Assembly: GCF_000189635.1 (NCBI RefSeq)
Contig: NW_002476379.1
Span: forward strand, 372,001-436,000
Length of the DNA stretch: 64,000 nt
Source: Tetrahymena thermophila SB210
Taxonomy: Eukaryota > Ciliophora > Oligohymenophorea > Hymenostomatida > Tetrahymenidae
Direction: 5' to 3'
Numbering within the stretch: position 1 is the stretch's first letter; every line of letters starts with the position of its first letter. Below are positions 3,183 to 64,000 of this stretch, in pieces. Under the pieces are notes generated by a model that saw only the letters and a list, made by a program, of their open reading frames with translations, had not been told where the DNA came from and did no database searches. A program made the position numbers and the translations under genes.

Positions 3183-4045
3183 ATTAATTTTGAAGTGTAT
3201 CGATTAATTACCAACCAACAAATTGTTTATTAAATTTATAATACAATAAGAGTTATTTTACTAAAAAAATAAATAATATTATTCAAATATATATTTAAAC
3301 TATAATAATAAATAAAAGAAACTTGAATATCTATCCATCTTGTTTTTTGTTCATATATAAATATATCAAAAATTAGATTCTATAAAAAATTAAAAATATT
3401 TTTTTTATCAAAATTAATTTTTGAAAAGCAATCCAATCTATTTTAATTGTTTTTTCAATAAATAAATAAATAAATTGATACCAAGATGGATATGAAGGTT
3501 CATTTTTTCCCAGAAAATAGGATTTATATTATTGTAAAATCTTATTCATAATTATAAATATAATTTTAAAAAAATTAAAAATATTTTTTTTTTATTGAAA
3601 ATTTATTTTTTCAAAATGTTAACACATATTTTGCTATTTTTTAATTAATTTTTGCTTTAAAGAATTGCTTAATAGTTTAATATTTTTAAATAAGATTAAT
3701 AGTTATTGCTTTAAAAAAACACACTTTTTCAAATTATAAATAATTTTTTCAAGTGCTTAAATTTTGAAAAATACAAATAAAATAATTTTTGAAAATACAA
3801 AAGTTTTATTTTTTTTGGCGAATTTTTTTTGTATTGATTGATTGAATAGTTCTATATATTTTTTTATAAAAAATAATTGAATAATATGAGTTTGAGTTTA
3901 AAAGAATAAAATTAATAAATGCTACCTAATCAAAAAGAAAGTAAATTTAATAGTATCTATTAAATAAATATCTTTTCTAAAGAAATTATCTAAATAAATA
4001 AACTTTTTAAATAATTAGTAAAAGCATTTTTAACAATCATAAATA
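3183..4045. other. AT-rich spacer with an imperfect inverted repeat
   Basis: No reading frame with protein-like composition was seen. The segment around 3320-3342 (ATATCTATCCATCTTG) and the one around 3481-3501 (CCAAGATGGATATGAAGG) are near reverse complements about 140 bp apart. The rest is A/T homopolymer-rich spacer, presumably the 3' UTR of the IQ protein and the promoter of UPF2. Confidence 0.5.
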
Positions 4046-8993: not shown

Positions 8994-12874
<3,881 letters not shown>

Positions 12875-26900: not shown

Positions 26901-28577
26901 TTTTGAAGAAAATGTAATATATATTTATTTTTTACCAGTACTCTCGAAGATTGAGTGAATATTATTTGTTTATCATAATTTTCAAAAAACCGGGGAAGTA
27001 ATAATAAGAAATAATATATTCCTTACACTCTTTTTGGAGAATTTGATAAATGTCAATCACTTAGAACTCATTTCTGAATTTAAAAACATATTTTATTTCA
27101 TAAAAATAAATAGAAAAATTTGTGTGAGGTTTAATAAAAGATTGATTACCTCCTAAAATTGACTAATTTTTATATATAACATCTTTGAAATTTTAAGAAG
27201 TGAAATAACTGAAAAAACTTAAAATGATAAAAAATACTTTTTAATGCTTTTTTTTTTTTAATAAGATTTTTATTTCTCGAAACTGACTCAATTTTATGAA
27301 AGTAAACCGCTGGCTGCTTTTTTTCATATTTATAATTTTGTTCAGTTATATAGCTTAGATTCAAAAAACATAGGCTGCTCAAGTATTTTATCATGAGTAG
27401 AGAAAATCTAATACTGATACTTTTTTGAAGAAAAAAAAATACTAACGCATAAATTTATTGATGACCATAGTATCATTTGTATTAAAAAGAAAAAGTTACT
27501 TGATATTCAGAAGATTCTGTATAATCAAAATTTATGTTTTTCATGTAACCCAAAATTAATTACGTCTGTTTTTTAGATTTTGAAAGTCACTCAAGGTATT
27601 AATAACTTTCCGATATTAATTCAAATTTTTTTATTATTATGTTTTTTGTGTATAAGCTCTATTTACTAGTGATAAATAGTATATAATAAGATCACCAAGC
27701 AAGTCAAATTTATTCAATATAGATTAACTAGATGATTGCTTTTTTAAATTTTAGTTTATTTAAAAACAAAAACTGATTTCTAATTGTTTTTGCTTTTTTC
27801 TTCTCATTTATTGGAAGGTTTTGATGTAAGATAATCTCCTTGAAAAATGAATTAAAATAGATAAGGAGAATAGCGAGATTTTAATATAAAAATGTGCTTT
27901 GTTTGCATTGTACGGTGAATGTAAGAGAGACATTTTATTAATGTAATAATCCTTAATCAATAAAAATTTTCACCTATAAAAATCTAATTAAGATTGATAA
28001 GTGGTTGACTTCACTTTGCTTACACGTTGGAGAAACAGAAAATAAATTCAAATTTTTTGATAAAATCTTGCTTGCTTTCTTAAGATAATTAATGCATTTT
28101 TTTGAAACTAGCAGATTTATTTAGAAAGTTTTGCAATTAGTTAATTTAATGGATATATATATATACATCTTAGATTTTCGATAAGCAAAATTAATGAGTT
28201 GAATTACAAATTTGATAAAAGAATAGATAATGAAATAAAAAAGTGGTACTTGAAAAAAAATCTAATAAAATATAGTGATTTTGAATTTTTCTAAATATCA
28301 ATTAATAAATTGGAACGAAAAAAAATATAGATTTAACAATTTATTGATTATTCATTAATTAATTAATTAACTAATTTGCCTTCAGATTTGATTTTTTAGT
28401 GAAATCTATTAATCTATCTATTAATCTATCCCACAAAAGAGCAAATGAACATGTAGAGTTTGCGATTAATTAAATAACTTAAACACATAAAACATTAATA
28501 AATTAAAAAATCATAATTCTCATAAAAAATTTAAATAAATATCAGACAAAAAAATACTTATTAATTTATTAAAAAAT
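23950..28577. other. 4.6-kb region without a recognisable gene
   Basis: This is the longest gene-free stretch, lying between the divergent starts of the centrin and CDPK genes. Almost all of it is A/T tracts with frequent TGA in all frames, and no frame has the Q/K/E-rich protein look of neighbouring genes. The part at about 26,580-28,060 is slightly less AT-biased and has a short hairpin (TCTCCTT 27835-27841 pairing with AAGGAGA 27863-27869). A (TGAA)n tract lies near 26460. It could hold an unrecognised ncRNA or very divergent gene. Confidence 0.5.
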
Positions 28578-30317
28578 ATGGGAAACTGCACTCACAAACC
28601 TAATATTAATAAAAAGAATTTGAAATTATAAACCAAGTATTAGGTTAATAACAAAATAAAATCTGATAGTGACATATTTGAGGATGTTACTCCTGATAGA
28701 AAACCTCAAAATTTAACTATAATTCCAAAGAAATCCTAATTCAAGCTCAAACCAGTAAAATAAAACCTGGAAGAGCCTTTACCTTCAAATATAACTAAGA
28801 GTTCTGAAAATTAAATGGAGAAGACTACTTCTTCTCGTTAAAATATTTATGATAACTATAAAATGATAAAGCTTATAGGCAAGGGTTCTTTTGGAAAGGT
28901 AAGATTAGCTACTAATGTTAATGGAAAAGAATTTGCTGTTAAGTCCATTTTAAAGGCTGATGCTGGAGAGCGTTATTATTTACTACGCCGTGAATTAGAT
29001 ATAATGAAGAAAGTCGATCATCCAAACCTCGTAAAATTTTATGAGACATACCACGATGACAAATATCTCCATATTGTAATGGAGTTTGTACAAGGAAAAG
29101 AACTCTCACAATATTGTTAGGAGAGATTCGAAGTAAATAGAAAATTCACTGAATCTGAAGTAGCTTTTATTGTACGCAAATTACTTAGCGCACTGAGTCA
29201 CATGCATAATTTAGGAATCATTCACCGCGATATAAAACTGGAAAATATTATGATTAATGAATCAAACCTTGATGTTAAAATATTAGATTTTGGGTTGAGT
29301 CGTGATTTCAGTTAAAGCTAAGCATCTATACTTTAATCAATCGTTGGCACTCCCCTTTATGTTGCACCTGAAGTTATTAACGAGTAACCATATGATTAAA
29401 AAAGCGATTCTTGGAGTATGGGAGTGCTCATGTATTATTTGATTTCTGGTTCTCACCCTTTCGAAGCTTCTAACATTAAAGAGCTATTCAAGAACATTTG
29501 TTCGGCTAACTTCAACTTTAGAAGCAGCGCTTGGAGTGGAATATCTAAAAGTGCAAAGGTATTAATCACCCAATTTTTAAATTTAGACCCAAAAAGTCGT
29601 ATTTCTTGTGAAGAAGCTTTATAAAGTGATTGGTTTTCAGTTTATTTAAAAAATTAAATAAATTACAAATCTCGCAATATGAAAAAATGCTTATCGAAAA
29701 TATAAAATTTTATTTCTTTCTAGAACTCCTTTAAGTTCAAATAAGAAATAATACGTCTCATGTTCAACACCTAAACATAAACTGATGAAATTCAAAAACT
29801 AAAGATAGCTTTTGAAACCATCGATACCGATGATAATGGCTATATTTCAGCAGAAGAACTCTTTAAAGCTACGTAATAATTAAATATTCCTATCACTCAA
29901 AAGTAAATATATGCTTTGTTTCAAGAAATAAACTGTCATAAAATAAATAACGCATTCAAAATCAGCTAAGAAATAGATGTTAATTAAGATGAAAATAAAT
30001 AATAAAACTACATTCACTATTCCGACTTTATATATGCTTCGATCAATCTTTCTAAAGAATTAGATTAAGAGAAAATAAACCAGCTCTTTAGTCACTTCGA
30101 CAAAGACGGTGATAATTTTATATCTCCCCAAGACTTAGAGGATACCTTCGCTTAAGAAGGTCGTAAATTGCCAGAATAATCAATCAGATAAATGATTGAG
30201 GAAGTAGATGTTGATGGTGATGGTAAAATTTCATAGTAAGAATTCTTGTAGCTAGTACAACAAGAAATAGAAATTTTCTAAAAAACTCGCACTTCTTTCA
30301 CTAACCTTGAAATTTGA
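28578..30317 (+). CDS. Calcium-dependent protein kinase (CDPK)
   Basis: Single exon, 579 residues, ATG 28578 to TGA 30315-30317. The N-terminus MGNCTHK is a myristoylation signal plus possible palmitoylated Cys. The kinase domain begins about residue 95 with GKGSFGKV, the VAIK-type Lys in FAVKSIL, HRDIKLEN, DFGLS and GTPLYVAPE. It is followed by the junction region and a calmodulin-like domain: EF1 DTDDNGYISAEEL, a degenerate EF2 interrupted by an N/Q-rich insert, EF3 DKDGDNFISPQDL and EF4 DVDGDGKISQQEF. Family role: calcium-activated Ser/Thr kinase, autoinhibited by the junction at low calcium. Length and order are typical of CDPKs. HRD with Arg before Asp marks it as an RD kinase. Confidence 0.95.
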
Positions 30318-35814: not shown

Positions 35815-37266
35815 ATGGGTTCTTAAAGTTCGAAACTAGTTAGTGAATCCTAATAAAAAAAGGAGCATATTGTGTAGCTTTCTGGATAGTCATCGTAATT
35901 TTGAATAATTGATTTAGAAGAAACATTATCTATCACAATCATTAATAATAAATTTTAACAATTCTCACTATTTTTATAAATATTAGTGGATAGGCTAATA
36001 ACAGCTTAAACTATATGAGGAAAGAGCAGCAGAAATGTAATATGTTTAACTATTTTTTATTTGATTATAATTTAATGCTACTTTAAGGTGGTTTACAGTT
36101 CTTTTAAGAATTTAATAATCTAAAATATATTATGAGCGAGAATGAAATTCAATCATTACACTTGCAAGCTACCTAAAAAAATAACTTTAATTTTACTGTA
36201 GATTTTGAGAAGAATATTATATAAACACATGATTATGTAGTCTTGTAAAATATTTAAATTTTATTAAAATAATAAAGTGGTCAATACTCTTTTTAAGTGG
36301 AACTTTGGCGGAAATACAGTTTATGTTACAGGAACATTCTCTAACTGGGTTAACCACATTTAGCTTTAAAAATAGGGATAAGAGTTCAGTATTTGTGTTG
36401 TAATTAACTAATTAACATTTTTAGTATAAATGATTCTGCTTTTTTACAAATTATTATCATTAAAATAAAAAATGTAGCGCTTACCTCCTGGATTACATTA
36501 GTATAAATTTATAGTAGATGGAGAGTGGCGTTTTTCTCCTGAAGATAACTAAACAACTGATGAAAATGGAAATATAAATAATATAATAGATACAACCAAT
36601 TATAAAAACACTGATAATTTATATTTGCCAGAATCTCATGGAAGACCTGTTCCTCCTATTGAACATAGAGATAGAGAAAGAAAGGACACATCTTTTGATG
36701 AATAAGATTTTGACAAGCTAAGTGTAGGAGGATAAGGTCATTACAAAACTCCTGCTTACAATAACCCGATGACTTAGAAAAATACTATGGAATTGCAAGG
36801 AGAAAAATATTTTACTAATGTGACATCTCGTCCAACAACATTACCTGAATATAGTTTTAAAGATAAAGCACCTATATGTCCTCCTCATCTTAAGGATGTA
36901 TATTTTTTAAGATAAAAAGAAAGGAAGCATTTGAATGCATGGAAAACTCGCACAATTAATGAAAATATGCCTCCAGAAGAAGTCGAAAAATAAAAAAGGA
37001 TTGAAAAAAATGAAATATTTATACACATTTTTGATAACGACAGATCTTTAGCTCCTCCACAGCATGTTACAACGTAAATATGTTAAAAACACAAAGCTTT
37101 CTATTTTATTCATAAACAATTACAAATCAAGGCAAAATATAAAATAGATAAATTAGCCAACCAATTTGTGGAAATTTTAAAAGAAACTAAAAAAGAAATT
37201 TCTATTTTAATCATCACATTTTTAAAATAATTTGAAAATTTTATCTATTTTTAAAAAATATTTTGA
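35815..37266 (+). CDS. AMPK beta subunit with glycogen-binding CBM48
   Basis: Starts at ATG 35815 (MGSQSSK, a myristoylation signal as in other AMPK beta chains). Introns are 35895-35986, 36037-36087, 36237-36297 and 36400-36477; all keep frame. The carbohydrate-binding module starts at about residue 94: WNFGGNTVYVTGTFSNW, then LPPGLHQYKFIVDGEWRFSP, with the Trp/Lys/Asn pattern of CBM48. A linker leads to the association domain, recognisable by ICPPHLKDVYFL and LAPPQHVTT. The expected continuation (NHL.. and a final RYK-KYVT block) is not seen. The open frame instead runs to TGA 37264-37266 (389 residues). A donor-like GTAAAT at 37074 could start an intron to an unidentified last exon. Family role: scaffold joining AMPK alpha and gamma and sensing glycogen. 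Confidence 0.85.
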
Positions 37267-43336: not shown

Positions 43337-43753
43337 ATAAATATGAATAAATATTTATAATAATATATATATGCTTAGTTAAATATTAATTTTATAAAAG
43401 AATTATCAAACATATTTTGTGTAAAAATAAATAAATAAATATATTTAATTTTTATGTCTTTATTGAATAAAATTATGCTTGATATTTTTTAAATTTTATT
43501 TAGCAACTTCTTACTATATTTTAAAAGTTAAATTAATCTTTAAAATGAATTTCATTCCTAATAAAGTTTATTTAATATATTTTTAAATTAAATTGTATTA
43601 GAATAATAGAAATAGAAAGAGAGATGAAAATACTAACTCTTTTTTTCTTTCTTTTAATGTACACGAGACAGTGTTCAGATATTAAAAATTTAATAATTTG
43701 CAAATTAAAAATAAATATTTGATTTTTCAAAATTATAAAGAATTTAATAAGAA
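43337..43753. other. AT-rich spacer
   Basis: Intergenic, about 0.4 kb, with nothing recognisable. Confidence 0.6.
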
Positions 43754-44572
43754 ATGGAGAAACTAAAAACTTAAATTTGGGATATGCTCTATTAAAAATG
43801 TAGTGAAGAGCAATAATAGTTTGTTTAAAAATAGATAGATTGCTTTAAGACTTAAGACACTCCTGTATTTAATATGAAAATGTTGTAGTTTTAGCTAAAA
43901 ATAGCATTAATTATGAATTTTTATTTGAGCTATTTGCTAATAGCTGAGAGAAATAACTTAGAAGATTTCTTTTTTAATTAAAGTTATATAGGAACTGCAT
44001 GGTTTGTGAGTATTTGCGCTCAAAATATAATCATTTTAATTCCTAAAATAGTCATGATGATTATGCTTTAGATAGTACTAAATAGTACTAGAAATATCGA
44101 TGAACTTGTAGTTAATGTAGAGGAATTCATGAAAACAAAAGTTTATTATTACAATTGCTATATCTCTAAATATATTTGGATAAATTATGGAATAGGAGGT
44201 ATTTATTATGTTTTTAATATGGTTTTTGGTTATGATGAGTCAGCTTAATAAATAGTTTCCTTATGTCACTTCGTCTTATATATAATGGTGGCTAGATTAA
44301 TACTTTTTATAGCTAAAATTACCCTACAATCTAAAGGATTATCTGAATAATAGCTATAAAATCTTATAAATAAAAGGTAATCTCCAGTAACTGAAGATTT
44401 TTGTAAAAAACACGATGACTGTTGCTCTGTTTGTTTAGATGAATACTTAGTGGGATAAATTTCTTTATAGTTAGATTGCAAGCATATTTATCATTTAAGT
44501 TGTATTAAAACTTGGTTAGTCTAATAAAATAAATGCCCTTGCTGCAATCAATTTGCTTTTAGGGAACTATGA
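43754..44572 (+). CDS. Membrane RING-H2 finger protein, putative E3 ubiquitin ligase
   Basis: Intronless, 272 residues, ATG 43754 to TGA 44570-44572. Four hydrophobic segments lie between residues about 50 and 195 (ALIMNFYLSYLLIA; WFVSICAQNIIILIPKIVMM; YGIGGIYYVFNMVFG; LCHFVLYIMVARLILFIA). The C-terminus is a C3H2C3 RING: CSVCLDEYLVG, CKHIYHLSCIKTWL, CPCCNQF. All eight zinc ligands are visible. Family role: E3 ligase at an internal membrane, with the RING facing the cytosol (orientation inferred). The arrangement resembles other multi-spanning ciliate RING-H2 proteins. Substrate unknown. Confidence 0.9.
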
Positions 44573-45798: not shown

Positions 45799-48700
45799 AT
45801 GAATGAGTAAAACAGAGATAAAACTTCTTCAAAAATATCAAAGAAGTTGCAGCTAACTTTGAACTTTAATCCATAAGAAATATTAGAAATTGTTTATCTT
45901 GAAATAGAGCTTCAAATGCTTCCTAGGGATAACCAAAAAAGTATTGATTATATTGATGATTAAAAAAGAATCTATCTTTCTAAGTTGGAAAATGTAATGA
46001 TATTCTTAGATTTATAGTAAAACTTTATCAATTTATTAATATTCATACTAATTTAAATTTAAAGGATGACAAAGATTTAAATTCATGTCTATATGCCCTA
46101 TATTTAGAAGTATTTAAGATTAAAAAATTTTACTTAGCAAGTAATAAATAATCTTCAAGTGGTTAAACAACAAGCTTAAATCAAGCAAATAATTGTATTA
46201 ATTTCTGTAGATAATTCATTGATAAATATATTAGCTTATTAGAGTCTGATATACGAGGGAGAGCTTTGATTGTATTTTATTTAATGATAGAACTGTTTTA
46301 GTGCATAGAAATAAATGATTTCTTTTGTATTGAAAATATACAAAAAAAATATAGAAGCAATATCATTGTATTCTTTTCTAATTTTAATTTTACAACAATT
46401 TAAAAATAGTAAAAAAAAAGTACTAACCCATGTCTTTTAAAATTTTATGTGTCTTAGTTCGTTGGTACTTTGGGAATTATTCAGTATGAATTAAGGTAAT
46501 TGAAAGATTCATTAGAAAATTTAGATATTTCTGTGAAAATAAGAAATGAAAATTTATAAGAAAAAAGTATTTTAGAGAGATATCTAAATACTAAGTAAAA
46601 AATTTTAGAATACTAGTTGGTTATTTATTATATGAAATCTAAAAAGTGCAGCTGTCTTTTGAAAATGTAGAGATATGCTGAATGCTGCTCTTTTGGATAA
46701 TTTCTTAAGAAGCAAATAGCTAAGTTAGTTAGCAGTATTTCTTCTGAAAATAAAGATCTTAAATAAAATAAAGAAATTATTTTACAATTTGAAAATTTGA
46801 GCAACAAAATTTCTTAGGTGTTGTCATTGAGTAACGAAAATGCTAAAAATATGCTCCTTGGAAGTGATATACAAGATATTTTATATGAGATGAGAGGTAA
46901 TCAACATACTTTGGTCAAAGAAGAAAGCTCTTTGGATACATAAGAGTATAATTAGAATAATGAAGGACAAATCATAGAAGTAAATTCTCCAACAAATGCA
47001 AATATGGAATCTGATTTTAAAAATAAAGCTTTTGATTTTTAATATAAATTCTTCAATAGTAAAATTGCAACTTTAGAAAATATCCCATTAGACTCTCAAA
47101 TGAAAATATTAACCAGAATTGATGATACATAAAAAGGTAATATTTCATAAGCAACTAAAAATACAAATGCTATTTTAAAAGATGCAGATATTTTTTCTTT
47201 GAAAACCCTTCTTTTAAAAGACGACCAATAAAAATAACAAATGAAAAAAGCTATTCATGAGCAATTAATTTTTAAAAAATTAAATTCAACACAGAGTAAT
47301 TAAAATTCTAAAAGTATAATGAATGATATTTAAAAGGCCATAAATGAATCTTATACAGATCTTGATGCTTCTTAAATGGCTAAAGGCTAGTAGGACAGTT
47401 TAAATTAAAAAAATTAATAATCTTTTAAATAGATAAATTTTTCTTTTAAAACTCAAAGATAAAACTCATAGAATACTTTATCAATGGCGAATGTTAACAA
47501 AGAAGAAATTTTATAGAATTAAAGGTTTTTAAATGAATAGTAACTGAGTGAACTTTAGATGATAAAATAAACATCTAAATAAACTTCTGGAAATAATTCA
47601 TAAAAAGATGAAAATAAATTAACCGTTCCATCTCAAAGAGCAATTAATTTATCAAATTTACAAAAGTAATAAAGTGAGAAAATAAAAACGGAAATTAATT
47701 TAGAATCAAATAATCAACTGAGAGACTAAAAAGATTAAAAAGATCAAAATGTAAATAAATTGAGACAAAAAAAATTGAAGCTCTCTCCTTCAAGGGTTAA
47801 TGTTACTAATATTTCTTACTTTTTCAAACCTTAAGAGTAATTACCTTAGCAATAAAAAAATTTAGACTTCACAAATAACTTGGGTAAGAAGAAATTCATT
47901 CAGAAACTATTAGATAAAGAATCCCAAAATTTGCTTTAAGAAAAATATTAAAAGTCTAACCTAAATAATATTGGATAAAATGATGAGCCAGTAAGGCAAA
48001 ACTATTTTTAAAATTAAGGATAGATTTTTAATATCAAAATTGAATCTAATAATAATGAGTAAGACGATATATACTATAATATCAATGAAAGAATAAATTT
48101 ATAGGCACTTTAATTACAATAAATGGAAAGTGAGAGAAGTCAATAAGGTTATTTATTCACAGAAACCAGACCAAGTGAACCCAATATAATAACCCTTGAT
48201 ACTTAAAAAAAGAAAACTCTCTCAACTTAGAATACTCAGAGCAATTAAGAATAATATTTCTAATTTAATACACTTCAAACTTAATAAAGAACAATAAACA
48301 CAGAATAAGATATACCATTATAGAATGCTTTGAAAACTGAAAGCAGTAATATAAAATAGAGAAAAATATATAATAAGATTAAATTAGATTAGTTTTAGTA
48401 ATTTGAAGTAAATTAGCTAATAGATGGTTCTTAAACAGAAAGAAGTCATTTATAATCAGATTTATTATCTTAATAGTTATCTCCCTCTTCTTTTTTACAG
48501 TTTAATTAGAGGCCTGATTATTTTAATAAAGCTTTGACACAAATGAAAAGTACACAAGCTTCGTAGTCAACTTAAAACTCTCCTAAAAATAGCAGGCAGT
48601 ATTCAGTTTATTAACAATTAACTGATCGAAACAATAATATTTAACTGGTTCAATAGAATTAAAGAAAAAACTCAAATGCTTAATCTGCTTAAAATTAGTA

Positions 48701-51700
48701 AAATTATTAACAATAAGTTTCTCCTTCAAGAAATTTCGCTAATGTAGTAAATAGGGACTAATTAATCAAACAGATTAGTAATTACTCCTAGCCAAAGTTA
48801 AGAGTAAATTCAGAGTATAATTTGATTTAGTAAGATGATAATTTAGAAGTATTATAAAAGTAATAATAAAATTAACAAGAGCAATCTTAGGCCTAGTGTG
48901 TTAATAATAATCGTAGCAATTAAACTTAGACAAGATAAATGCACTATAATCGTGCTAATAAGCTGAGAAAATCTTCATTAAGTCCAAATTAAAGTAATCT
49001 TATTAGTTAGATTGAATAACATCCAAGTATAAACCTTTCCAAATAGTAAAGCTACACGCCAATTGGTTCTTTATAAGAATTTTAATTAGCTAAATAATCA
49101 AACGTAGAAACACAATCTAATTAAATTAACCTTGTCCCTAAGATAAATTTCGAATTACTCAATTAAGAATCTTTATAATATTTTGAATAAATATAAAATG
49201 AAAAATTTAATTAAAATAATAAGATATTATCACCCAACACTACAAATTTTACCTCAGGATCTGCTTATCTTTCGAGTTAATTATAATATGGCTAGCAATC
49301 TTAATAAACTCACTCTCCTTCATTTGCTAAAAAATTCTCAATCTCTTAAAATATAATTTCGCAATTACCACTGCAAATTTCTAGAGATAAAAGTAATTTA
49401 AGTGAAAAATTTTATATGCTTGAAGAATAAGATAAGCCTATAACAAGAAAGCGATATAGTAGAAGCACTAATATTAGTAGATAAATAAGATAAAATTCAG
49501 CAATGAGGAATAGATTCTTATCGTCCCATAGAAAAAGCCATGAAAAATTTATATCTGGATAAACAACTCCAAGATAACCGAATTCCTTTGCAGAAAAATT
49601 GCAAGCTAGCTTTAATAGCTAAAACGTAGTATAAAATGGAAAAAGTGTTAACTTACTTAACACCACTCTTAATTTAAAAGTAAAGACTGATCAATATGAT
49701 GCTAAAAATTAGATTGAATTTTATGATTAAAACTTAATTTTATAAAGAAGTGATAATAATAATTTAACTGAAAATGCGTAATCATAAAAAATAGATAGTA
49801 AAATAAAAGTATACAGATCCATTTCAAATCATGCAAGAGTACGACCTAAGACAGCTTCTGTTACTAAAAATAGTCAAAGAAGCTTATCTTAACATTCTAA
49901 TGTTGATCAGCAAAGATCTGTTACTTACATGCAAAATAGCAATACTAATATATTGAATTATTTCAAAAATATAAATTAAACGCCTACTGAAAAAGTAATA
50001 TAAAAAAATTATGAAACACCAACAAATAATCAGATTTAAGTTAGATAAAAATTAAATTATGAATAGTAAAAAAGACCACAAAGCTCTACGATCAAAAATT
50101 AAAGTAGGTAGGAATAGCCATATAATACTATGAGCTGTAATAACTTGTAATAAAAAATGACAAAAAATGTTATAAATTCTTAAAGTAGTTAAAATAAAAA
50201 AAATACTTACCCAATAAATGATTTATCAGAGAAGGGAGTAACTACAACTAGTACAAAAAGTAGATCCGATTATTATTTAGAGAATGCTTTATTATCAAAC
50301 TAAGTGTAACAACAATAACCATCTGCGTTATAGATGGTTTTGAATGAAATATAGTTTTAAAAAAAACTAAATGAGGTTATAGAAAGTGAGAGAAAATAAA
50401 ATAATTAAAAAAATAAAATATCTATCAAAAGTATAATAGGGAAATTTAAGGAAGAAGAAGAAACTCTATTAAAATGCATGGAAAATGCTTCCATGCTGTT
50501 AGACTAATAGTATTAAAAGAGGTTTTTATAAGATGGTTCCTTTTATGCAATAAAAAGCTTAAAAAGAATTCATGAAATACCAAGTTTGAACTAATTTAAT
50601 AACTAAGAGTAGTAACAATAATTATAAAAATAACCATCAATTGAAAAATAATTTGATGAATCTCAAAATCAGAATGAAGATATTTCTTATGTTTCCAATT
50701 AACAAGACTTTGAGTAGGATGAAGTAAATATGAGTTCTTCAAAGAAATCTTAGATAAATAAACTTAAAAGTGAGATTCAACGTGTAAATGAATAAATTTA
50801 ATAAAATTATTTCCCTGAATAAGAATAAAGAGGAGAATAATAATAAAAGAAATAGAGTTAAACAGATCTACTCAACAGATCCAAGAAATCGAAGTTTGCA
50901 AAGCCAGACAAGTAAATAAATATATAAACTTCTTTATCATTTTTAAAACTATGTTTTCAAAAATATAGGAAAAAGGAAGAATCACCATTCTAAAAAAGGC
51001 ACAGCATAGTATAGACATCAGCTTTTTATTCTTAAGCAGGAAGTCCGAAAAGTTCATAATTTAAAGGAAATTAATAAATTAACAATAACTTTTTAGTAAG
51101 CAATTTATCATCAATTTAATTAATTAGTATTTATTTATTTATTTTAACAAAAAAGTTTTAAATGAAAGATGAATTTGATGATAAATAATTGAATTACTAG
51201 GATTCTCTAGATGGTCATTTGAATAATAATGTACTACTAACAGTTTAATAGGATACGTTGACTGAAAACTAAGATTCTGACACTATAAAGATGGAAGATT
51301 ACATAGTATAAAACTATTCTGATTTATAATAAAGTAAGTTTAATCGACAAAAAACTAAACAACCTCAATAGCCAAAGGAGAGTATTTTTTAAGCTAGCTA
51401 AAATTAAGATTTGCCTGAAAATTCTTTGGATTTCATATAAAATTAAATTGGTAGTAATAGCTTGATACAAAATCAAAAACAATGGCATTCATAATAACAT
51501 AAATTATAAATTAATAAGAGTTCTAAATTTATTGATTTTCAACCTAACTTTTAAAAAAACAACAATATTTAATTGAGTGATTTAAATGGATTTGCAAGAT
51601 AGTTATCAGAATCAAACACTGTTTATTAACAACTTAATTCACCATTATTTACCTAATAAAGCTCTTCCTCTGCTTCAAATTACTTTTCAAGGAGAATTAA

Positions 51701-54700
51701 TTTATAGTTAAAAGTGCCAAAAAATCTTGAACTTAAAAGAACCAAACTTAGCTTTCCATCTTTTAGCAATCTAGAAATTGCTTCAACTTTAAGTAGATAA
51801 AACGGTCGCTCTAAATAAATATAAATTATAGATTCTTCTAATAAATAATCTTTGAAGAAGCTCAGTAAAGAACAGATTAGAAGCATAACATATTTCAATC
51901 AAAGCTTAAAGTTTAAATCTTAAACATTAATTAAATCTAATGTCAGCTTTTATGATAGTAATGATTAAGGAGAAGAGAAAAAGAAAGTTGTTACACTTTT
52001 TAAGTTGCTTGAAGAAACTAACAAATCTTATGAAGTGAGAGATAAACTTATAAACAGTATTAGTGGATTAATAAAAGGAATTAAAGTTTTAGATACTTAA
52101 CTTGCTTATCCTCCTATTATTTATTATATCCAATACAATAGCATTTCAGAGAGAATAAGACTGTCAATAAATCTTTAAAAAAAAAGTTACGATGCTGATG
52201 AACTTTATAATGAGAAATTTAATATTAACACTCGATCAAGGATTAATTCTGAATCCGATTAATCAAAAAATTGTAACGAATAAGATTTTATTCTTGAGAG
52301 AGAAGAAAGCTAAGATATAGAAGTTGAGCTAGTTATTTAATATGGTAAATTTTAAAAAATATATATCCCAATAAATCTCACTAGAGGCCTGCTAGAACAT
52401 CCAGTAGCAGAGAGGAAGCTTTTAGTTACTGTATGGCCATTAGTGTTTAAAGAAATGGAGAGGTATTTAGATGAAAATCATTTAATTGATGTGACAAATA
52501 AAGATATGCTTGGCTTGGAAGACTATGATCAAGAGGAAGTTAAATTAATAATCTATGAAAATAATAAATAAAATTCAAAGAGCATGGCCTTTCGTGATGA
52601 AGTAGTGAGCTTAAATGAAAGCCAAAGTATAAATTCTGATAATAAAATAGAATAGGGATATAACAAATCACCTTTAGTAAAACAGAAAGTGTAGACTATC
52701 TAAAATATACAGCTTGATCATATCTAAGAAATTAGTAAATCATCAAATAGTGATATGAAGTAGAGCTTTGATACAATTAAAAAATCTTTAACTATGAATC
52801 TAATCCCGAATTAAAAGAGTCTTGAAGATGATCTAGTATCATACTATCCTACAACTAGTGATTCCTCTGTAAACAGAAAGCTTAACATTTTAAGAGAATA
52901 GTTTGAAGATTTGAAAATGACTTTCTAGTTTTTTGGAGGTTTGGAATAATATTTTGCTAAATAAAAAAGTCCAGATGCCTAAATTATTGTTTAAAAAAGA
53001 AAAAAGAAAATTTTATCTTTAATTGATTTACATGAAATTTAAGGTTTGAAGGATAAGGTTAATTCTTTCTTGAGGTTTTCTTTTATCTATCTTTAAAAAG
53101 AAATTGGAAGAGGTTTTTGTTAAGATTTTAATAATGAATCATATTACCGTTACTTATTAAAACACTTAATGTATCTTAAAAAGTAGTATTTAAGGTTTAA
53201 AGCAGGTGTAATAGAATTTCCTGATGAGCAATCAGCATAACCGCTACTAATATCAAAAACTCCAATAGATTATCCTGGTTCAGCCTGCAAAACTCCTTAA
53301 TAATAAATTTAATTCAATTTAAATTAGCTCACATTGAATAGTGAGACTAAAAAGATGAAGTCTCCTTTAACATCAAAGCCATCACTAAATATTTATGGAA
53401 ACGATAAACAATAATTTGGAAGTACTCTTGACAAAAAAAGTCCTTATAATTTATTAACTAATATTCCTCGATCTGAAAATATTTTGCCTCAAGATTAGTA
53501 AAACTTTACTATTATGTAAAACTCAAATCAATCATTTAGAAACATTTCGGTTGCTAACTCTAATATTAGAAAAACAATTTTTATGCAATAGAATATGTAA
53601 AAGCAGGTATAAAGTAATTATTTTAGGCATCTCAAAGAAACACAGACCTCTATACAAAATGCACTAAATATTTACACAAAATCATCACCAGCTTTAATTC
53701 TATCTTTCCTGAAAAGAAATCAAGTAATTATAATTTTTAATAGCAATCATAATAGTAATTTTAATTTTAAATAAAAAGGATTAATACTTCCTAATTATTG
53801 CTAAACTTGTTATCAAGTAAGAGGTTATTTTTAACAATCTGTTTAATGAAAATGGAGAGTTCGACATTAAAGATAATTATTATTTTTATATTTCTGCAAG
53901 GCAACTAAACTCCAATTTAAAACAAAGAAATTTATTGCCTCCTATAGAAATAACTTAAGAGTAGTTGAAGCCCTACTATAATTAGGGAGAGTATAGATTA
54001 TTTTGCTGTTAAATAAATAAATTTATCATTTTTGGTGACATGAATAAAAAACAAAAGTTACAATTACTTTATTTTTTAAACCATTAAATTGGAATTACTC
54101 CGTAGGACAAATCAGATGCAACTAAACTGAATAAGCAAAAAATTCTTTTTAAAGATACTATAGCACTAGGTTAGAAGATATAGGTAGCAGATTGGGATTC
54201 TACATTAGCTTACAATCTTGAGCTTTACAGAATTATTTTTAGAAAAATTAAGTAATAATCTCTGTTTGATGGAACAGCTGTTTCAGAGGAGCTTAGTAAA
54301 GGATATTATAATTTATTTGTAAACAATTTCAATGAAGTCTACTAAGAGCATGGAAAGAGTAAAAGAGTAGCACTTTCAGTTTACCATAATTATGAAAGTG
54401 ATGCTGAAGAAGATAAACAATATAATTAAGCAAATAAAAAACAGAATTAATAAAATTTAGACACTCATGGTTTGCCTATGTTAAATAATGATAGCTAACT
54501 CTAAATAAATATCAATCAGGAATAAACATAAGAAGTGCCTAATTTGCAATTAAATAGGAAAAAAACCAATTCAAATTGTATAAATTTTTTTATTTATTTT
54601 AATAATAATATATTTATTTTTTTGAAATTTTTATATATATTTATTTTTTTTTTAACGAACAAAAGATCAATTCCTTGAGGATAGAAATTTTCAGCAAATG

Positions 54701-57700
54701 CAAAAATACTATCCTTAAAAAGTATAGTAATTTCTAAAAAGAAAAAGAGAATGGTACTTAACATTAGGAAAATCAAATAGAATGAGAGTTAACTTTCATT
54801 TTGATTGGAAAATAAAAAGCTCAATAGAAGAATTCAAAATATACTTTTTTGATTTAGAAAGATAAAAAAAATTCTGTATAAAATAGGTTCCATTAAAAAT
54901 ATAAAATATACTCATCAGATTAATTAAATGGGAACAAGAAAAGTATGCTTATTTAGATCATAAGGCCTCTAAGAATTTTTAGTTAGCATAGATTTAAAAT
55001 GTATTCTTCTTCGAGGCTTAAGGCTTTACTGGAATCAAACCTGTTATTAAGATAAATAAAGAATTAAGCATTAAAACTATTATCATTACTTCATAAAAAT
55101 CAATCAAAGAGCATCTCATTTCAAATAGCTCTGACTTACTAAAGTAAATTAAATTTTTTTTTTTTAGATATTTATTTTTTTTTGTTTATTTAAAAGATAT
55201 TATCATCTGAAGGAGTATCAGTTTTGTATGAATATGAATTTATATGGTAAGTGCATCTCTAATCTCAAATTTTACATTATGAAAAGACCGTAGCTCAACT
55301 ATGAACATATGTATGCATTTTTACTAATCATTCAGCCTCTCAACTCAAAGACAAAATAAATTAAATTTGTTTTCTCATTCTAAGATCTAATTATGCTTGA
55401 TAATAATCAAAACATAACAGAAAATCTAAAAAAGAGGTTTACAAGAGCAGATGCGACTAAGGTTATCAAATTAGTATCTACAAGGATTAGACTAATAAGA
55501 GGTCTTTTTGGAGCTTTTCCTATTTTGATGACTGAATAGCAAGCCAAAACATATGAAGAGTTTAAAAAGTAAAATTAACAATCAAAAATAAAAGAGTAGT
55601 TGTAAAAATAAAATGCAATCAAACAAAGAGCATTGAGATAATAATCATAATAGCTTTAAATTATAAATGCTATTTCTCCTGTTAATTAAATTTCAGCTTA
55701 AGCATAAATAGTAAGAAGTGCAAGACCTTCTTTATTTTCTAAGATCAATTCTTTGTTTTAAAAAGATTCATTTTTAGACACAAAGAATTTAAATTAAGGG
55801 TTAGATCAATCTAATACTAGAAGAAAATCTTAGTTTTTTGAGTAATCAATTAAGTAAATACCAAACAAAAATTAATTAGCACTGCAACCTGTAATTTCTT
55901 CTTAATAAGAAAGTCTTACAAGTTCAAATTCCGATTCTTCTTAATCTTCTATTACAGAAAAAATTAATGACAAGATATCTCCTTCTGCCAAAAGTTCAAA
56001 TGCCATTTAAAAAATTAACTTTAGTGAGAAAAATAATAAATAAAGCTCTCCAGCTAATGCAAAAAGAATTATGAATAGACCACCTAATTTAAATTTAGGT
56101 AAAGAATAACTACTGACATTTTCTTCTAAATTATAAGATATGGGTATACTTCAAAATAAAATAACTGCTAATGAAAATAAATAATTTTAAGATAAGTTTG
56201 TAAGTAAAGAATTGTAAAATTAGGATGAATAAACAAACTCTAATAATAAATATATCATTTAAAAATAAATTTCATCTTCTACAATTACACCTTTGATGAG
56301 CTTTTTGAAAACAAAAAAAGAAGTTAAGGCAGAAATAAATAGCAATAAATCCCTCTTTAACAGCTTAAATATGAATAATGATCTTAATAAAAAATAATAT
56401 AGCTCAATGAGATCTTCATATAATGGAAAAGAAGGAAATAAGTAAGAAAAAAATAAGATGGAACATGTATTCAAAAGAACTGAATCAATAGACTCTTAGG
56501 AATCTCAAGAGAGTAATAGAATATCTAAAAATGAAAATTCAAATGTAAAATCTATCTAACCTAGAAAGGTTAGTTTTGTAGATAAAGCAAAAGACTAAAA
56601 CGAACATTTTAATCAATTAAATACATAAAGTTAACATGGTATACTTAAAAAGGCAAGATAATTTGAAGCCAACGATCAATAATCTTCTTACACATCTCCA
56701 AGGGTTTCATTTAAAATTTAAGAGTAGTCAATAGAAGAATCCTTATAAATAGACTCATCGAAAAGTAAATCTAATGAAAAAAATATTTCATCCCAAAGTA
56801 ATAGTGGTCACTCAAACTCATCTTAGCTACAAAGTATTAACAAAAATGAAATAGATGAATTAAATGATTTGAAAAAGGAAAAATTGAATACCAATGAATC
56901 GAATAAATTGCAGTAAAATTCAGAAAAAAGAAGTGATTATGAGGGGACAAATAATATTTTTTAAGATCTTAGAGTGTTTAAAAATATAATTTCAAGACAC
57001 GATTTTTCAGATGGAAAGCAAAACCTTACAAATACAAATAAAGGGTTTCTTGAGTCTTACTTGTAGAAATCTAGAATTATTGGTTAGTACGTAAGAAAGA
57101 TGGCTAATAATGAATATGTATTGATTACAGTCAAAAAAGATTTTATATTAAAATGCTGGGATATTCAAATTTATATTCCAAAAACATAGAGGGTACTACT
57201 TAGTTAACTTTCCCATAGTGAGCTAATAGATTGCAACTATGATTTTTTAAACCGTAATATTGCAACAAAACTTAGATTTTTCTATGAAAATAAGACAACA
57301 GCTCCGTTTGAGAGTTACCTCTCCTTTCTTAATCGTGTCAATTAGTACTCAAATAGGATGTCAACTCCAGACATAACAAAAATACAAAAAAATAATAATA
57401 ATGATTAAGGAAAAATAAATTCATTTTAGAAGTAATCAAAAAATAACTTTCTTAGCTCTATAATAACTAAGTTAAAAAATTCAGATGAATCTTAAACATC
57501 TCCTGAAAGTCTGAATGCATCTCCTCTCCCTGAATATCATTCTCCTCGAAATACTCATAAAAAAAAAAGTATACTACTTGTAAATAGTATTGAAAATAAT
57601 TTGTTGAAAAGACAGACCTCAAATAAGAAATTGGCTTAAACAATTAAAGAAAGAGATTAAAATGAAAAACTACAGAATAGCATATAAAATAATTTAGATC

Positions 57701-60700
57701 TTTAAAAATAGCAGTAATTATTTATTTAGTAGAATTAAATAGATCTACCTAAAGAGGATTATAAAATAAAATAAGGCACTTCAGAGAATTAAACATAATA
57801 AAATTATTTAGAAAGTCCTTACTAAAGATCAAGTTTAAAAAAAGTGAGTTTTATAAAATTAATCAGTATAGAAGATGAAGAATCTAAAGATGGTGAGAGT
57901 TCAAAAAGAACAAATAAATCTGGAAGTTAAAAGTCTTTGCATATGATTAATTAAAGGAGTAATGATGAAAATACTCCAACATCCTCCAATAGTTCAAAAA
58001 TAAGTTTTTAAAAAAATATTTAATCACAAAAGAATCCTGAATCTCCCTCAATTATATCTAGAATGCTAGAGTCATCCAGAAGAAAAGGATAAAGAAAATT
58101 GACATTTAAACTAGATGAATAATAGTAGTAACACTTAAAAAATGTAATATCTAGTAGTTCTTGTGATGAATAAGCTTAAAATTCAAGTTATTCTAAAAAA
58201 TCATATCAAGAAAAATTAAATAGCCCACTTAATAGAAGCATTTAGTCTCCTTTTGATAAAAAAGATCAATAAGGTATTTCAGAAATGTAATAAAATACTG
58301 AAAGTTTAAATTTATCTACCAAAAAATCTAGTTAAGAACAATAAACACAAAACGTTGGGATAGATAATGACAATCAAAATATTGATCAGGCTCCGAGACT
58401 TTAAGAAAACAAGCAGCCAAATAATTAAAATATATCTTCCAGCTAGTTTAATAAAGATAAAGGAGCTTAAAATTTAATTAGCTAATAACAATCCCTTCTT
58501 CTTTCTATGCATAATATGCGCAGCTATTCAAAAAATATATTTTCTTCATCAGTCAATTAATTAAAAAAAGTTGGAGGAAGCACAAGAAAAATGAAAACAA
58601 ATAATTAGATTTAAAAATTAAATTAATTAAATCTAGTCCACTCGAATTCTTTAGTTGAAGAAAGCTAAGAAGGTGGTGGACGATTAAGAAGCTAAACAGG
58701 TTAATTAGGTAGTTCTTAACAATAATAAAGTTCGGTTGTGCAGAGAACTTTAAAATTTTTTTAAACAAAGACTGCAAATAAACAAGCTCAGCAGATTAAT
58801 CAAGGTAATCTTGAAAATAATTCTGATAGCAGTAATAAAGGCACCTAAAAGAAAAACTTAAAGTAGTTGATTTCATAAAATTAATAAAAAATAATTGGTG
58901 AGAGAAACTTGATAGCATTGGTTGATTTTATGAAACCAAAGTAGTTTGAAAAAGTTACTTTATAATAAAAAATGTTATCAATAACAGAAGAAATGGATAT
59001 TGCATTTATGACAGGTTGCCCAAATGAAAGAATAGATAATCTTGTTAGATTTATCGAAATAAAAATTTGGTCTAACTTCTTGAGCTAGTGTGAATTTAGA
59101 ACTGATGATAAGCATTTTAAAGTAGTCCTTTTCTTTGGTAGCAATAAGCTTAGTATTTAAGAATAGCTTTTCCATGACTACATAAAGGTAGATCAACAAA
59201 ACGAGAGTGTAATTGAAGTAGGTGTTGATCTTTAAGAATCAATACTCTTTTTAAACAAAGATGCAAAGCTTCCAACTCGTGTTTAACTTTTACAATATTT
59301 TTTTAATTCTTTTAAGAGTATCCCATACACTATGACATCTAATTTTTCTTTCACAGTTCAAAATGTTATAATAAACAAAAGGAGCATTAAAAAATTTAAT
59401 GTAAACGTACGTGAGCTACTTAACTTATTTATCGCAGAAGGTTTTTACAGGTTTTAAACTAACTACATGAGTTCTAAAGTCAGTTATTCAGAGCTTAAAA
59501 ATCTTGCTTACTTCCTGATCCATAAGATTAAAAACTCAAACTTCTTAGAATTAATGCAAAATTAAGAAAAAAATATCTCAATTGATAAAGCAAAGAGCAA
59601 AAATAACCCTCAGTAAAATCAAGGAAACAATTTATCAACAAGCTTTGCAAAATTAAATACTTTGAATTCTATCAATCAAATACCATCTGAAAATTAGATT
59701 ATAAGCTACGCAACTATAAACATTTAACAATAAGCTCGTTAGCAAAAAAAGAAGAAATAAAAAAGAAACTTTATTATCTTGAAAGATGATAATCTGATGT
59801 ACTTTTATGAAAAAGTAATTAATGTGTAGTTAAAATTAATAATGAAGGTATCATATTTTACAAGAAGTCATTAGTTCTAAATTGTTGTATATAAGTCTGG
59901 TACATCTATGAGCATAATAAGAAATAAATCATTAAAATATTTTAACAAAAAAATCCCTTTTATTTAGCAGTACATGAAATAACTTGATCTATTTGATACT
60001 GCCCTTTCTAGAGTTTGCGATTACATGGTAGATAAGATGATCTTATATTTTATAATTTAACACAATCTCCATTAGGATGAAAGATATATCAAAAAATTAC
60101 ATAATAATGATAAGTAAAGAAAAAAATTCTCTGTGTTTTTAGTAAATAATATATACTAGTTATAGGAATAAACTAGCTCAGAAGAAATTATAAGTACTGA
60201 TTAAAATATATATGTAGATTCTGAAGATAGTGATAGCTAATAAGGGGATTAATAAGATGATGAAATGACAGAAGATTTTCCAGTAAGTTAATACGAGTTT
60301 AATGATACATTATCATAGAATTAAAGTAACCGCTAAATATAAAGTGAAAATGAAGTAAGGTTTTTCTCTTCTAAGAGCTTGACTCCAATAAGAATGTTTT
60401 AAAATAGCAAATTCCAAAAACTAAAAGGTTAGAGGAGTCTTTTTGTTTAAGGATCAAGTGATAGCAGCTTTATAAGTAAAGAAAACTAAAGTCCTAATTA
60501 ATCGATGCAATCATAAAACTAATATCCATTAAAGAAAAGCTCATCGTTTGATGAATCTGAAAAAAATGATAAATATTAAATCTAGGATGAAAATCTTGAT
60601 CAAGAATATGTAGATGAAGAAGAAGAGTATTCAAATCACTCTGATGATAATGAAAATGATATTTAAAACTAAATTGATTAGAATGATGATGAATATTTTT

Positions 60701-60741
60701 AGAACGAAAATAACTATGAAGAAAATAATTAGTATGAATGA
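45799..60741 (+). CDS. Giant Q/N/S-rich protein, 4,871 aa, function unknown
   Basis: A single open chain was followed from ATG 45799 to TGA 60739-60741. Six exons are joined by introns 45994-46064, 51096-51155, 53724-53778, 54578-54665 and 55144-55196; all restore frame. I checked 46065-51095 by eye and found no in-frame TGA. Folded-looking islands sit in long S/N/Q/K linkers. The N-terminal 330 residues are helical and Cys-containing (CSCLLKMQRYAECCSF). Islands near 51,960-52,560 (LLEHPVAERKLLVTVWPLVF), 53,780-54,400 (YNLELYRIIFRKI) and 54,670-55,650 (MRVNFHFDW; RIRLIRGLFGAFPIL) follow, with others near 57,060-57,360, 58,880-59,560 and 59,700-60,150. The C-terminus is an acidic D/E/N tail. 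No family recognised. Could be a ciliate-specific cortical or scaffold protein. Confidence 0.8.
51096..51155 (+). other. 60-bp in-frame intron in the giant gene
   Basis: GTAAGC..AAAAAAG with very high A/T. It is exactly 60 bp, phase 0, and contains no TGA, so the surrounding frame reads through it whether or not it is spliced. An ATG (51162) follows just after, which could mislead gene finders into calling a second gene. Confidence 0.65.
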
Positions 60742-62431
60742 AATTAATACAAAAAAAAAATTAATTATTTTAGAAAATTTAAAATAAAATTTTATATTAT
60801 TTTTTCCCAAATTTTGTACATTTAATTGATGAATTATAAAATTTTGTAAGATACTTTAAATTAATTACTTAATATTCAGACATTAAAATTTATGAAAAAA
60901 AACAATTAATTATTATGTGATAGTATAAAGTCTTTACTGCTTTAAAATTTATTCTTTTATTAAATAAATAACTAAATTTTAATTAATTATTTATTTTTTT
61001 AATTTATGAATGTTGCATAAAGTTTTACAATTAATAATAGCAAGTCTCTAAAAAAAGAAAGTAATTAAATTAATAATAAAAAAAGTAAATCAAAATAGCA
61101 ATCAGCAATATTTATTTATTCTATCAGAAAGACAGATTACAAACCTTATAGCAATTTTATTCAATTCTATTTCTATTAATTGGAAGAAAAGTTATATATG
61201 TATATAAAATTTTAGATTTTTAGTATGGTTCTTTTAATTGAAAGATGCTAAATAGGAAAAAAAAATATTTTAGACCTGATATTTTTATTTATCAGACATA
61301 ATTTTTTCCATCAAAAATTTTGTTTATATTTTTCCCTGTTTTGATTTACTTCGAATTAATTCCTTTTAATAAATTTACAAGTAAATAAATTTTGTTTGAA
61401 AATAAATTTTTTGATTTCTAAAAATAAAAATATAACTAAAGAATTTGAACCGAATATTTTTTATAAACCTCCCTCCTTTCTAATCTATTTTTTGTCTATC
61501 TCAAATAAAGATATTTTAACGCATCCTTTAAAGATATTTCTAAAAATAACCTAAGTAAAGAGTTAAGATTTCAAAATAAAATGATGTATTAAGGTGAGAG
61601 AAATTTAAAATTGAATCTTATTAACATTAAAATCTACAAATCATTTTGTATTTTTTAAATGAGAAATTATTTTCCATATTTTTAAAAATTTTTAACCAAA
61701 ATTTAACACATGAGCAGTTTTCCTTGTATTTTTACAAAAAGTAGTATCGTATTTCATATTTTTATCAAAAAAAAACTTCATAATAAGTCATTTAGTTGAG
61801 TATTTTATCACAAAACTATAAGTTAATTCTAAAAAATTCATCTGAAATTTAATTTTAATTTAATTAATTTATTGAATAAGAAGGAGATGAATTTATTTTC
61901 CTTTGTTTAAAGTAAATCTTACATAAATAAAGCTTTAATTATAATTTATTTGCACTATTTCTTAGCATGAATTCTAAAAAATTTTAAGGTGTAATAGAAA
62001 ATAAATTGAAGATACTTCTATTTATGATGCTAATATTTACTCCTTTATAAAAGAAACCCTTATTTTTATAGCAATTGGTTGTTGAGCCACTAGTAACAGA
62101 GAAAGAGTGAAATAAAGTACTAAATAATATATTTAAAGAATAGGTGGAAGTTAAATCAAAAAAAAAATTCATAAAACTAATTAGGTCATAGGTAACCACT
62201 TCAAGATAGTAAAATACAGATGAACAGTATCTATATTTATTCGTTCTTTGCAATTTGATTAGATAAGATAGATAAACGATTGCAAAATTTAATTTATAAA
62301 TAAATAAATAAAAACGAAAAAACTCAAGATTAATTTTTGATGTTTTAAAAATATATTTTCAGACAATTTATTTATAATATTTATTTAGTTTAAATAATTA
62401 AAAAAGAAAAGCAAAGTAATACACTTAGGTC
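60742..62431. other. AT-rich spacer before the kinase gene
   Basis: About 1.7 kb, AT-rich. A somewhat less biased segment near 61,960-62,260 shows no frame I would defend as coding. No RNA gene was seen. Confidence 0.5.
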
Positions 62432-64000
62432 ATGTCAAGATAAATTGGCAATTACGTCTGGGACAACTCAGGTTTCCTAGGAGAAGGCTCTTATGGTAAA
62501 GTATACAAGGGCAAAGATGTGAAAACAGGTGAGCTTGTGGCTGTAAAGTGCATGGATATGTCACAATTCACTGATTAGTTTATGAAGGAGTCACTTGAAA
62601 ACGAAATTGGAGTTATGAAAATTTTACATTCTAATAATGTAGTTAGAATGCTTCACTGTGAATAAGACAAAGTAATTTCAATACTTATATTTTTACAAAC
62701 AATTAAATAATTAACTCAACATATCATTCCTTAATTACTCTTACTCTCCCTCCTTTTTTGGTATATTCTTTCTTTTGATCTTTGATTACCATTTTAAATG
62801 TACATCAAAAAATCTAAAATAATTGAAAAACTATGAAAACTAAACCTTTCAGTTATAATAGAATATTAATTTACTAACTCTTTAAAATTATAAATTCTTA
62901 GAAAACTACCTATATCATTTTAGAACTATGTCCAGATGGAGATTTACGTAAATTCATTCACTCAAATGGAGGACACCTTAATGAAACTCTCTCATTGGAG
63001 ATTTTGAATTAGTTGATGTTCGGATTTAAGGAATTAGTTGATCATGGATTTATCCACAGAGACATTAAGCCTGAAAATACTCTCATTAAAAATAAGGTTT
63101 ATAAGGTTGCTGATTTTGGTTTTGCTTGCAAAGCTGACATTTCTGGAAAGAAATTGATCAAAGAATGTGTTGGTACTCCTTTATATATGGCTCCTTAGCT
63201 CCTTGAAAACACTCCCTATACTTCTAAGTCTGATTTATGGAGTATTGGTATGATGTTCTATGAAATGCTCTTTGGTAAAACGTAAGAATTTAAAATTTAT
63301 TAAAGCGATTGAAAATATCTTTTAGATAGATTATATTTTATGAGATTCTTTATATTTTTTAAAAAATAAGCTAGTTAAATAGTTAAATATTTAATTGTAG
63401 ATAGATATTTTAAAAAAATAATTAGATTAATTAGTATGTATTAGAATAAGAAACGCCAAAAAAAAAAATAATAAAGAATTAAAGATATTTTTTTAAGATT
63501 AACAAAATAATTTATTAATAATTAGACCCTGGCCTGCTAGAGATATCAACAGTTACTTACGTAACATGAAGAATAGTCCTTTGAGATTCCCATATGATAA
63601 ACCTATTGGTAAAAATACTAAAGATTTTATCACCAGATGCCTTACCATTAATGAAAAGTCACGTATTAGTTGGGAAGAAGTTTTCTAGCATCCCATATTG
63701 AAGTCAATAAGTGGCAAGCAAGAAGGTCCCGCTTTTAATTTTGATGATAAAGCAAAACAAATTATTAGAAGTATGCAACAAATAGTATAAACAAGAAACT
63801 TGAACACTGAATAAATCTTTTACAAGTTTGATTCTGACCATTAAGGTGGCCTTAACCCTTAAGAGTTCCATTTACTCTTATAGAATATAGACCCTCGTAT
63901 TACCTACTATGAATCTGAGCATCTCTTTTAAATAGTAGATTCCTCAAAAGATGGTAGAATTTCTCTTTAGGAATTCAAAGCTATTTTCAACGAATGGGAC
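62432..64000 (+). CDS. ULK/ATG1-like protein kinase with C-terminal EF-hands, cut by window end
   Basis: Starts at ATG 62432; introns 62672-62901 and 63282-63525. The 365 visible codons end exactly at the window edge without a stop. Kinase motifs: GEGSYGKVYKG, VAVKCMD, HRDIKPEN, DFGFA, GTPLYMAPQ (Gln where most kinases have Glu in APE), DLWSIGMMFYEML. The ULK-style TPWPARDIN follows and a compact C-lobe ends in HPILKS. After about residue 310 an EF-hand pair begins: DSDHQGGLNPQEF and DSSKDGRISLQEF. Family role: ULK/ATG1 kinases act in autophagy or ciliary signalling. EF-hands would add calcium control, as in CDPKs but on a ULK-type catalytic domain. Domain fusion is inferred from one continuous frame. 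Confidence 0.85.

Follow-up and report, generated by a model that had tools for sequence, protein, structure and literature searches.

We found that a 64,000-nt stretch of the Tetrahymena thermophila SB210 genome (assembly GCF_000189635.1, contig NW_002476379.1, positions 372,001 to 436,000 of the forward strand; hereafter the window, to which positions refer unless another contig is named) carries a giant gene of 15 kb with an open gene model, a family of paralogs in its own genome and a conserved order of islands. On sequence comparison, the gene groups with at least nine other giant paralogs and is not an orphan, although an earlier note on this DNA had treated its protein as an isolated one of unknown family. 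With confidence evenly divided for and against, we read the gene as intact and as a member of a set of at least ten old paralogs, coding for a giant protein of ~570 kDa that would serve as a nonenzymatic multivalent scaffold.

The window is 77% AT and can be read with TAA and TAG as glutamine (genetic code 6). Under this code the gene runs from an ATG at 45799 to a TGA at 60739-60741, through open frames at 45960-53849, 53713-54678, 54626-55210 and 55135-60741 that are joined by five GT..AG introns (86-93% AT; table 1). The spliced product has 4,871 residues and no internal stop, so the predicted frame bears out the single 15-kb gene with five introns that the earlier note had proposed. In the window, the longest frame free of TGA reached 2,629 codons, while 60 first-order Markov sequences gave a maximum of 764 and a mean of 476. 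Taken as a whole, the gene looks real and intact. Intron 1 is ambiguous: removal of 45994-46064 leads to 4,871 residues, of 45941-46017 to 4,869 and of 45941-45984 to 4,880, and further frame-keeping GT..AG pairs exist. The first choice was preferred because its ends are like those of the other four introns. Residue positions given below are those of the 4,869-residue model, to which 2 must be added after the first intron for the 4,871-residue model. Introns 3 and 5 were supported independently: the sequence joined at intron 3 aligned unbroken to five paralogs that are read there in one frame, and domain E2 aligned across the junction of intron 5 to paralogs likewise read there in one frame. 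Codon use, which discriminates weakly, favored the gene frame in exons 1, 2, 3 and 6, barely did so in exon 5 (-0.024 vs. -0.033 for another frame) and was slightly against it in exon 4 (-0.015 vs. -0.008); 2 of 23 sliding windows ran contrary to the gene frame.

Considering that intron 2 (51096-51155) is in frame, and that the sequence stays open whether it is removed or kept, the frame alone is no proof of splicing at this point. Moreover, few parts of the gene have a GC content as low as that of the 200 nt at 51049 (0.175). Both observations would suit two adjacent genes, with a promoter near 51.1 kb, instead of one. Nevertheless, the frame is open across 51.1 kb, the flanking intergenic DNA is 83-87% AT compared with 75% across the gene, and an upstream frame rich in glutamine and asparagine (934-2,228 codons, Q+N at least 20%) precedes the modules on the same strand at all nine paralog loci. 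We therefore consider two genes quite improbable and continue with one.

The family was collected from the organism's own genome (101.0 Mb, 445 contigs). The C-terminal frame P0005 gave 18 further matches at E<=0.001, which fell into nine loci (L012-L030) on the contigs labeled C441, C22, C157 (two), C122, C278, C126 and C279 (two in tandem). The frames P0002, which holds the N-terminus, P0003 and P0004 retrieved only themselves. When the divergent paralog C279b was used as the query, six of the nine other family genes were found and no additional gene appeared. Modules were then defined by comparing the code-6 frames of the fetched loci by blastp and by iterated profiles. As far as they were detected, the six modules D, E2, F, G1, G2 and H kept one order and one strand at all ten loci. 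Leave-one-out profiles recovered all 53 preselected gene-domain members (D in 6 of the ten genes, E2 in 9, F in 10, G1 in 9, G2 in 10 and H in 9), with a worst E value of 2.3e-4 against a best antisense value of 1.4e-3. The giant gene itself was recovered at 4.9e-6 (D), 2.5e-20 (E2), 5.6e-27 (F), 7.2e-26 (G1), 3.2e-29 (G2) and 1.9e-14 (H), and G2 was found in every gene at 7.3e-19 or better. The modules that escaped detection were D and E2 at C126, D, G1 and H at C279a, D at C279b and D at C122; introns may be the cause. Considering that one antisense match to H reached 9e-4, single matches near 1e-3 were not counted as evidence.

The members of this family have diverged widely. Module identity between the giant gene and its paralogs was only 16-42%, and blastp of its N-terminal and linker parts against the paralogs gave no match. 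Their tree was star-like, with branches of ~1-2 substitutions per site, and only the group of C126, C279a and C279b was well supported (95). The two giant paralogs at C279:198001-228000 (L028-L030) stand in tandem on the same strand. The tree paired C279a with C126 rather than with its tandem neighbor C279b, with a support of only 60. The genes look like old paralogs whose modules are under selection and whose linkers drift freely.

Outside these six modules the family signal is narrower. Target-only iterated profiles for islands A, B, C and E1 yielded nothing at E<=1e-3. A first profile of island B was dropped after it had drifted into antisense matches. In leave-one-out runs, a wider B alignment recovered one of seven members (C279a) and a wider C alignment two of five (C157b and C22); the C profiles also matched C278 at 4e-5 to 8.6e-5. 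The motif [ST][ILV]WP of island B occurred once per gene in nine of the ten family genes, with one antisense occurrence, and the tenth gene, C278, has TIWS at that position. A 36-residue window around it gave E values of 1.6e-5 for the giant gene, 4.1e-5 for C279a, 4.7e-3 for C126, 0.017 for C157b, 0.047 for C279b, 0.14 for C122 and 14 for C157a, and left C441 unmatched; the best antisense values were 0.018 to 0.24. Since the wider B profiles and this window performed poorly, the family-wide claim for island B is limited to the motif.

The giant protein alternates between low-polar stretches and linkers of low hydrophobicity, in agreement with the earlier description of folded islands spaced by disordered segments. 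The low-polar stretches (residues 33-200, 207-301, 2032-2081, 2135-2200, 2336-2442, 2572-2779, 2892-3119, 3642-3728, 4264-4465 and 4533-4662) together make up 28% of the protein. The linkers, whose bounds were set by us, account for 63%; Q, N, S and K abound in them, and hydrophobic residues are scarce. All four islands listed previously were recovered, and three unlisted ones were added, namely the N-terminus, C and F. The N-terminal region is hydrophobic and, as judged by eye, probably helical.

None of these parts matched a known family in the searches made. Pfam gave no family at its cut-off for the five frames P0001-P0005, for ten G2 and eight F members and six paralog N-terminal frames, or for islands A, B, C and E1 of the giant protein together with two paralog N-terminal stretches; its best match to the giant protein, Urm1 in island C (0.0084), lay below the cut-off. 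With NCBIfam, no match of P0002-P0005 was better than 0.03. Among PDB sequences, nothing matched frames P0005, P0002 and P0003 at E<=1 or profiles A2, A4, A5 and A6 at E<=10. The absence of any recognized domain, as noted before, thus holds within the scans made of Pfam, NCBIfam and PDB sequences. Three candidates were judged to be short chance matches: a GABA receptor with profile A7 of domain F (E 0.015, ~40 columns), pestivirus E2 with profile A3 of domain H (E 0.034, ~40 columns) and an IgA Fc receptor with frame P0004 (E 0.86). No TPR model was listed at E<=10 for the N-terminal 327 residues, in a search where most matches above 0.1 are lost to the HMMER filters, and none was found at E<=1 in the N-terminal frames of six of the nine paralogs. 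The Pfam IQ model had no match in P0001-P0005, and a stricter IQ pattern matched the giant protein nowhere and a loose one three times. An IQ-like stretch, TKIQQFFRKYTSQKKL, was seen by pattern match in the C22 paralog (L016), near 565.2 kb of C22. For G2, viral contigs and prokaryote genomes were also searched by pattern: 26 stretches of the former and 44 of the latter fit, and none was confirmed. In domain F (A7), no stretch was conserved enough for such a pattern search. Among the papers that the literature searches listed, no title or abstract opening described such a giant family.

One explanation for this silence is that the modules are highly diverged known domains, with C2-like, PH-like or TPR folds for example, and that the family is new in layout only. 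For D, E2, F and H, crude propensity averaging suggests a strand-strand-helix pattern; the N-terminus is a long hydrophobic region, and branches of the length seen among the paralogs imply large divergence. On the other hand, the strand-strand-helix pattern is common to many folds, no Pfam match reached the cut-off, four of the profiles lack a PDB sequence even at E<=10, and the values of A7 and A3 cover only about 40 columns. We hold this explanation to be credible, with our belief falling somewhat short of even; if divergence alone does hide known folds, the interest of the family falls to its unusual layout.

The modules might also be related to one another, and internal duplication of an undescribed domain had been suggested for the islands. 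Comparison of profile with profile singled out D and F, which aligned over 33 columns with a probability of 6.15% and a score of 21.1, whereas 100 column shuffles reached 15.65 at most. Of the 15 pairs among the six modules, the remaining 14 had probabilities of 1.07% or less, and eight of these 14 beat their own ten shuffles. As a group, the 15 pairs outscored their counterparts in which one of the two profiles ran backward (P 0.0006 by Mann-Whitney test, or 0.001 without D-F), a P value that is too small because the pairs share six profiles and that was controlled by reversed profiles only. The suggestion of duplication is thus favored by D-F singly and by the group against its reversals, and is not borne out by the other pairs taken individually; the comparisons give a hint of a common origin. 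That all modules derive by divergence from a single undescribed domain, copied within the giant protein, seems to us rather doubtful, though a serious possibility: D-F spans only 33 columns at 6%, and any direction-dependent property of real proteins would lift the forward scores.

What such a protein might do was considered from its layout. One end would be the hydrophobic, probably helical N-terminus and the other, toward the C-terminus, a string of conserved folded modules, from B to F and then G1-G2-H, and the disordered linkers, with their many Q, N, S and K residues, would keep the two far apart. This spacing would let each module bind its own, different partner. The invariant residues of G2 are N, N, G and K, which in our judgment are unlike a known catalytic set. 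The most economical inference is a multivalent scaffold.

More speculatively, the linkers flanking F would dock protein phosphatase 1 (PP1) and so bring it to the partners of the modules. In IDR2 we noticed RKVSF (residue 3478) and PRVSF (3524), and in IDR3 KKVSF (3903), all of which fit the docking consensus of PMC3735429. GILKK (3503), 21 residues before the second [KR].?VSF site in IDR2, resembles the KGILK site of inhibitor-2. A broader RVxF pattern occurred at three sites in IDR2 and two in IDR3 (P 0.006 and 0.010 against shuffled linkers), although the motifs had caught the eye before any count was made and the disorder of the linkers was judged from composition. IDR1, with 1,676 residues, contains neither a [KR].?VSF nor a SILK-type site, only two looser matches. 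This concentration in IDR2 and IDR3 of three sites of the first type and one of the second would fit a dedicated PP1 regulatory subunit. Among the paralogs, strict linker motifs were restricted to KVSF in C157a and GILK in C22, and for the broader pattern these two had one site each (C22 P 0.37, C157a P 0.16) and C122, C441 and C126 had none. Therefore, PP1 docking is not a trait of the family and would be a candidate lead for the giant gene of the window alone. Moreover, nothing links the folded modules to PP1 and the motifs were noticed after the fact, and we regard a dedicated subunit as unlikely.

Several points weigh against the scaffold and its putative phosphatase. RVxF motifs are common (25-30% of eukaryotic proteins, according to PMC3735429), those of the giant protein were counted after being seen, and such linker sites occur in only two of the nine paralogs. 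GILKK alone had a P value of 0.062, which is not significant. Across all longer frames of the loci, strict RVxF was no commoner in sense (12 in 93,030 residues) than in antisense (9 in 79,614), and the SILK pattern was found 11 times in sense and 15 times in antisense. The word scaffold itself comes from the layout and from the lack of any match to an enzyme. No relative of the N-terminus (P0002) was detected in the genome, and a helical N-terminus common to the family is a visual impression.

Table 1.— Features of the giant gene, its predicted protein and its nearest recognized neighbors, in window positions.
Feature	Position	Strand	Remarks
RING-H2 finger gene	43628-44569	+	Pfam; nearest recognized upstream neighbor of the giant gene
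Exon 1	45799..45993	+	ATG 45799; 3' end varies with the choice of intron 1
Intron 1, preferred	45994..46064	+	71 nt, 86% AT; ends like introns 2-5
Exon 2	46065..51095	+	Remaining N-terminal hydrophobic region, then most of IDR1
Linker IDR1	46908..51995	+	1,676 residues, author-set bounds; contains intron 2
Intron 2	51096..51155	+	60 nt, 87% AT, in frame
Exon 3	51156..53723	+	Last part of IDR1, islands B and C, first part of D
Island B	52029..52535	+	[ST][ILV]WP motif (TVWP) near 52.43 kb
Island C	52863..53261	+	"IxGLKDK"-like segment; 5-sequence alignment; Urm1 match below cut-off
Domain D	53652..54060	+	Conserved; intron 3 within; 6/10 genes, leave-one-out E 2.3e-4 or better
Intron 3	53724..53778	+	55 nt, 89% AT; paralog alignment spans the junction
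Exon 4	53779..54577	+	Remainder of island D
Intron 4	54578..54665	+	88 nt, 93% AT
Exon 5	54666..55143	+	Island E1, start of E2
Domain E2	55085..55539	+	Conserved; intron 5 within; 9/10 genes
Intron 5	55144..55196	+	53 nt, 92% AT; paralog alignment spans the junction
Exon 6	55197..60741	+	Remaining E2, IDR2, F, IDR3, G1, G2, H, acidic tail, TGA
Linker IDR2	55549..56946	+	RKVSF, GILKK, PRVSF
Domain F	56953..57342	+	EYVLITVKKD and YIPKTQR segments in the giant protein; 10/10 genes; alignment A7 of 8
Linker IDR3	57349..58806	+	KKVSF
Domain G1	58834..59238	+	Conserved; 9/10 genes; alignment A4 of 6
Domain G2	59287..59562	+	Best-conserved module; NVRELLNLFIAEGFYRFQTNY...SKVSYSEL in the giant protein; alignment A2
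Domain H	59752..60054	+	Conserved; 9/10 genes; alignment A3
C-terminal tail	60139..60738	+	Polar, acidic at its end
Protein-kinase gene, start	62111-62782	+	Pfam; nearest recognized downstream neighbor of the giant gene

Besides the two neighbors in table 1, the Pfam scan of the surroundings, which covered 20 out of 178 stop-to-stop frames with 150 codons or more, recognized a protein kinase domain followed by EF-hands, of the calcium-dependent kinase type, at 28449-30317 (+), and two AMPK1_CBM (glycogen-recognition) stretches in one frame at 36136-37263 (+; E 1.4e-27). A cyclic-nucleotide-binding domain was found at 10672-11457 (-; E 3.6e-21) and a MIF4G domain at 5122-6651 (+; E 1.3e-16).

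With at least ten giant proteins whose modules keep their order and match no Pfam or PDB sequence, the family would point to a conserved ciliate structure or process that is undescribed in the literature surveyed. The alignments, those of G2 and F above all, are ready for use as search profiles in other ciliates, and expression and structure work can start from the module borders. In the boldest version, modules B to H would be copies of a new fold confined to ciliates, the family an undescribed class of scaffold that organizes a ciliate-specific structure, and PP1 a partner recruited by the giant protein of the window; we think this a long shot.

The family was also compared with known systems. 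With the PP1 regulators described in PMC3735429, the giant protein shares the [KR].?VSF and GILKK sites of its linkers, but it is a giant modular protein and its motifs are not conserved across the family. The Q-rich disordered ciliate proteins covered by PMC10942620 resemble it in their UAA/UAG-encoded glutamines and long Q/N-rich tracts. It differs from them in its conserved folded modules, in SQ/TQ pairs that are not enriched (86 observed vs. 91 expected) and in having only four runs of four or more Q. The expanded Tetrahymena domain families named in PMC6564038 (LRR, TPR, WD40, kinase, CNBD, GFR and P-loop NTPase) are likewise multicopy gene families; however, none of these domains was listed for the giant protein or the scanned paralog frames, and the tree of our family is star-like and long-branched. 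The closest comparison is with the nine paralogs. They differ from the giant gene in sequence (16-42% module identity), in their apparently shorter spans (roughly 10-13 kb vs. 15 kb) and in strict PP1-type linker motifs, which two of the nine possess, whereas they share with it the order D-E2-F-G1-G2-H as detected, the TIWP motif in eight of nine and the long Q/N-rich upstream frame.

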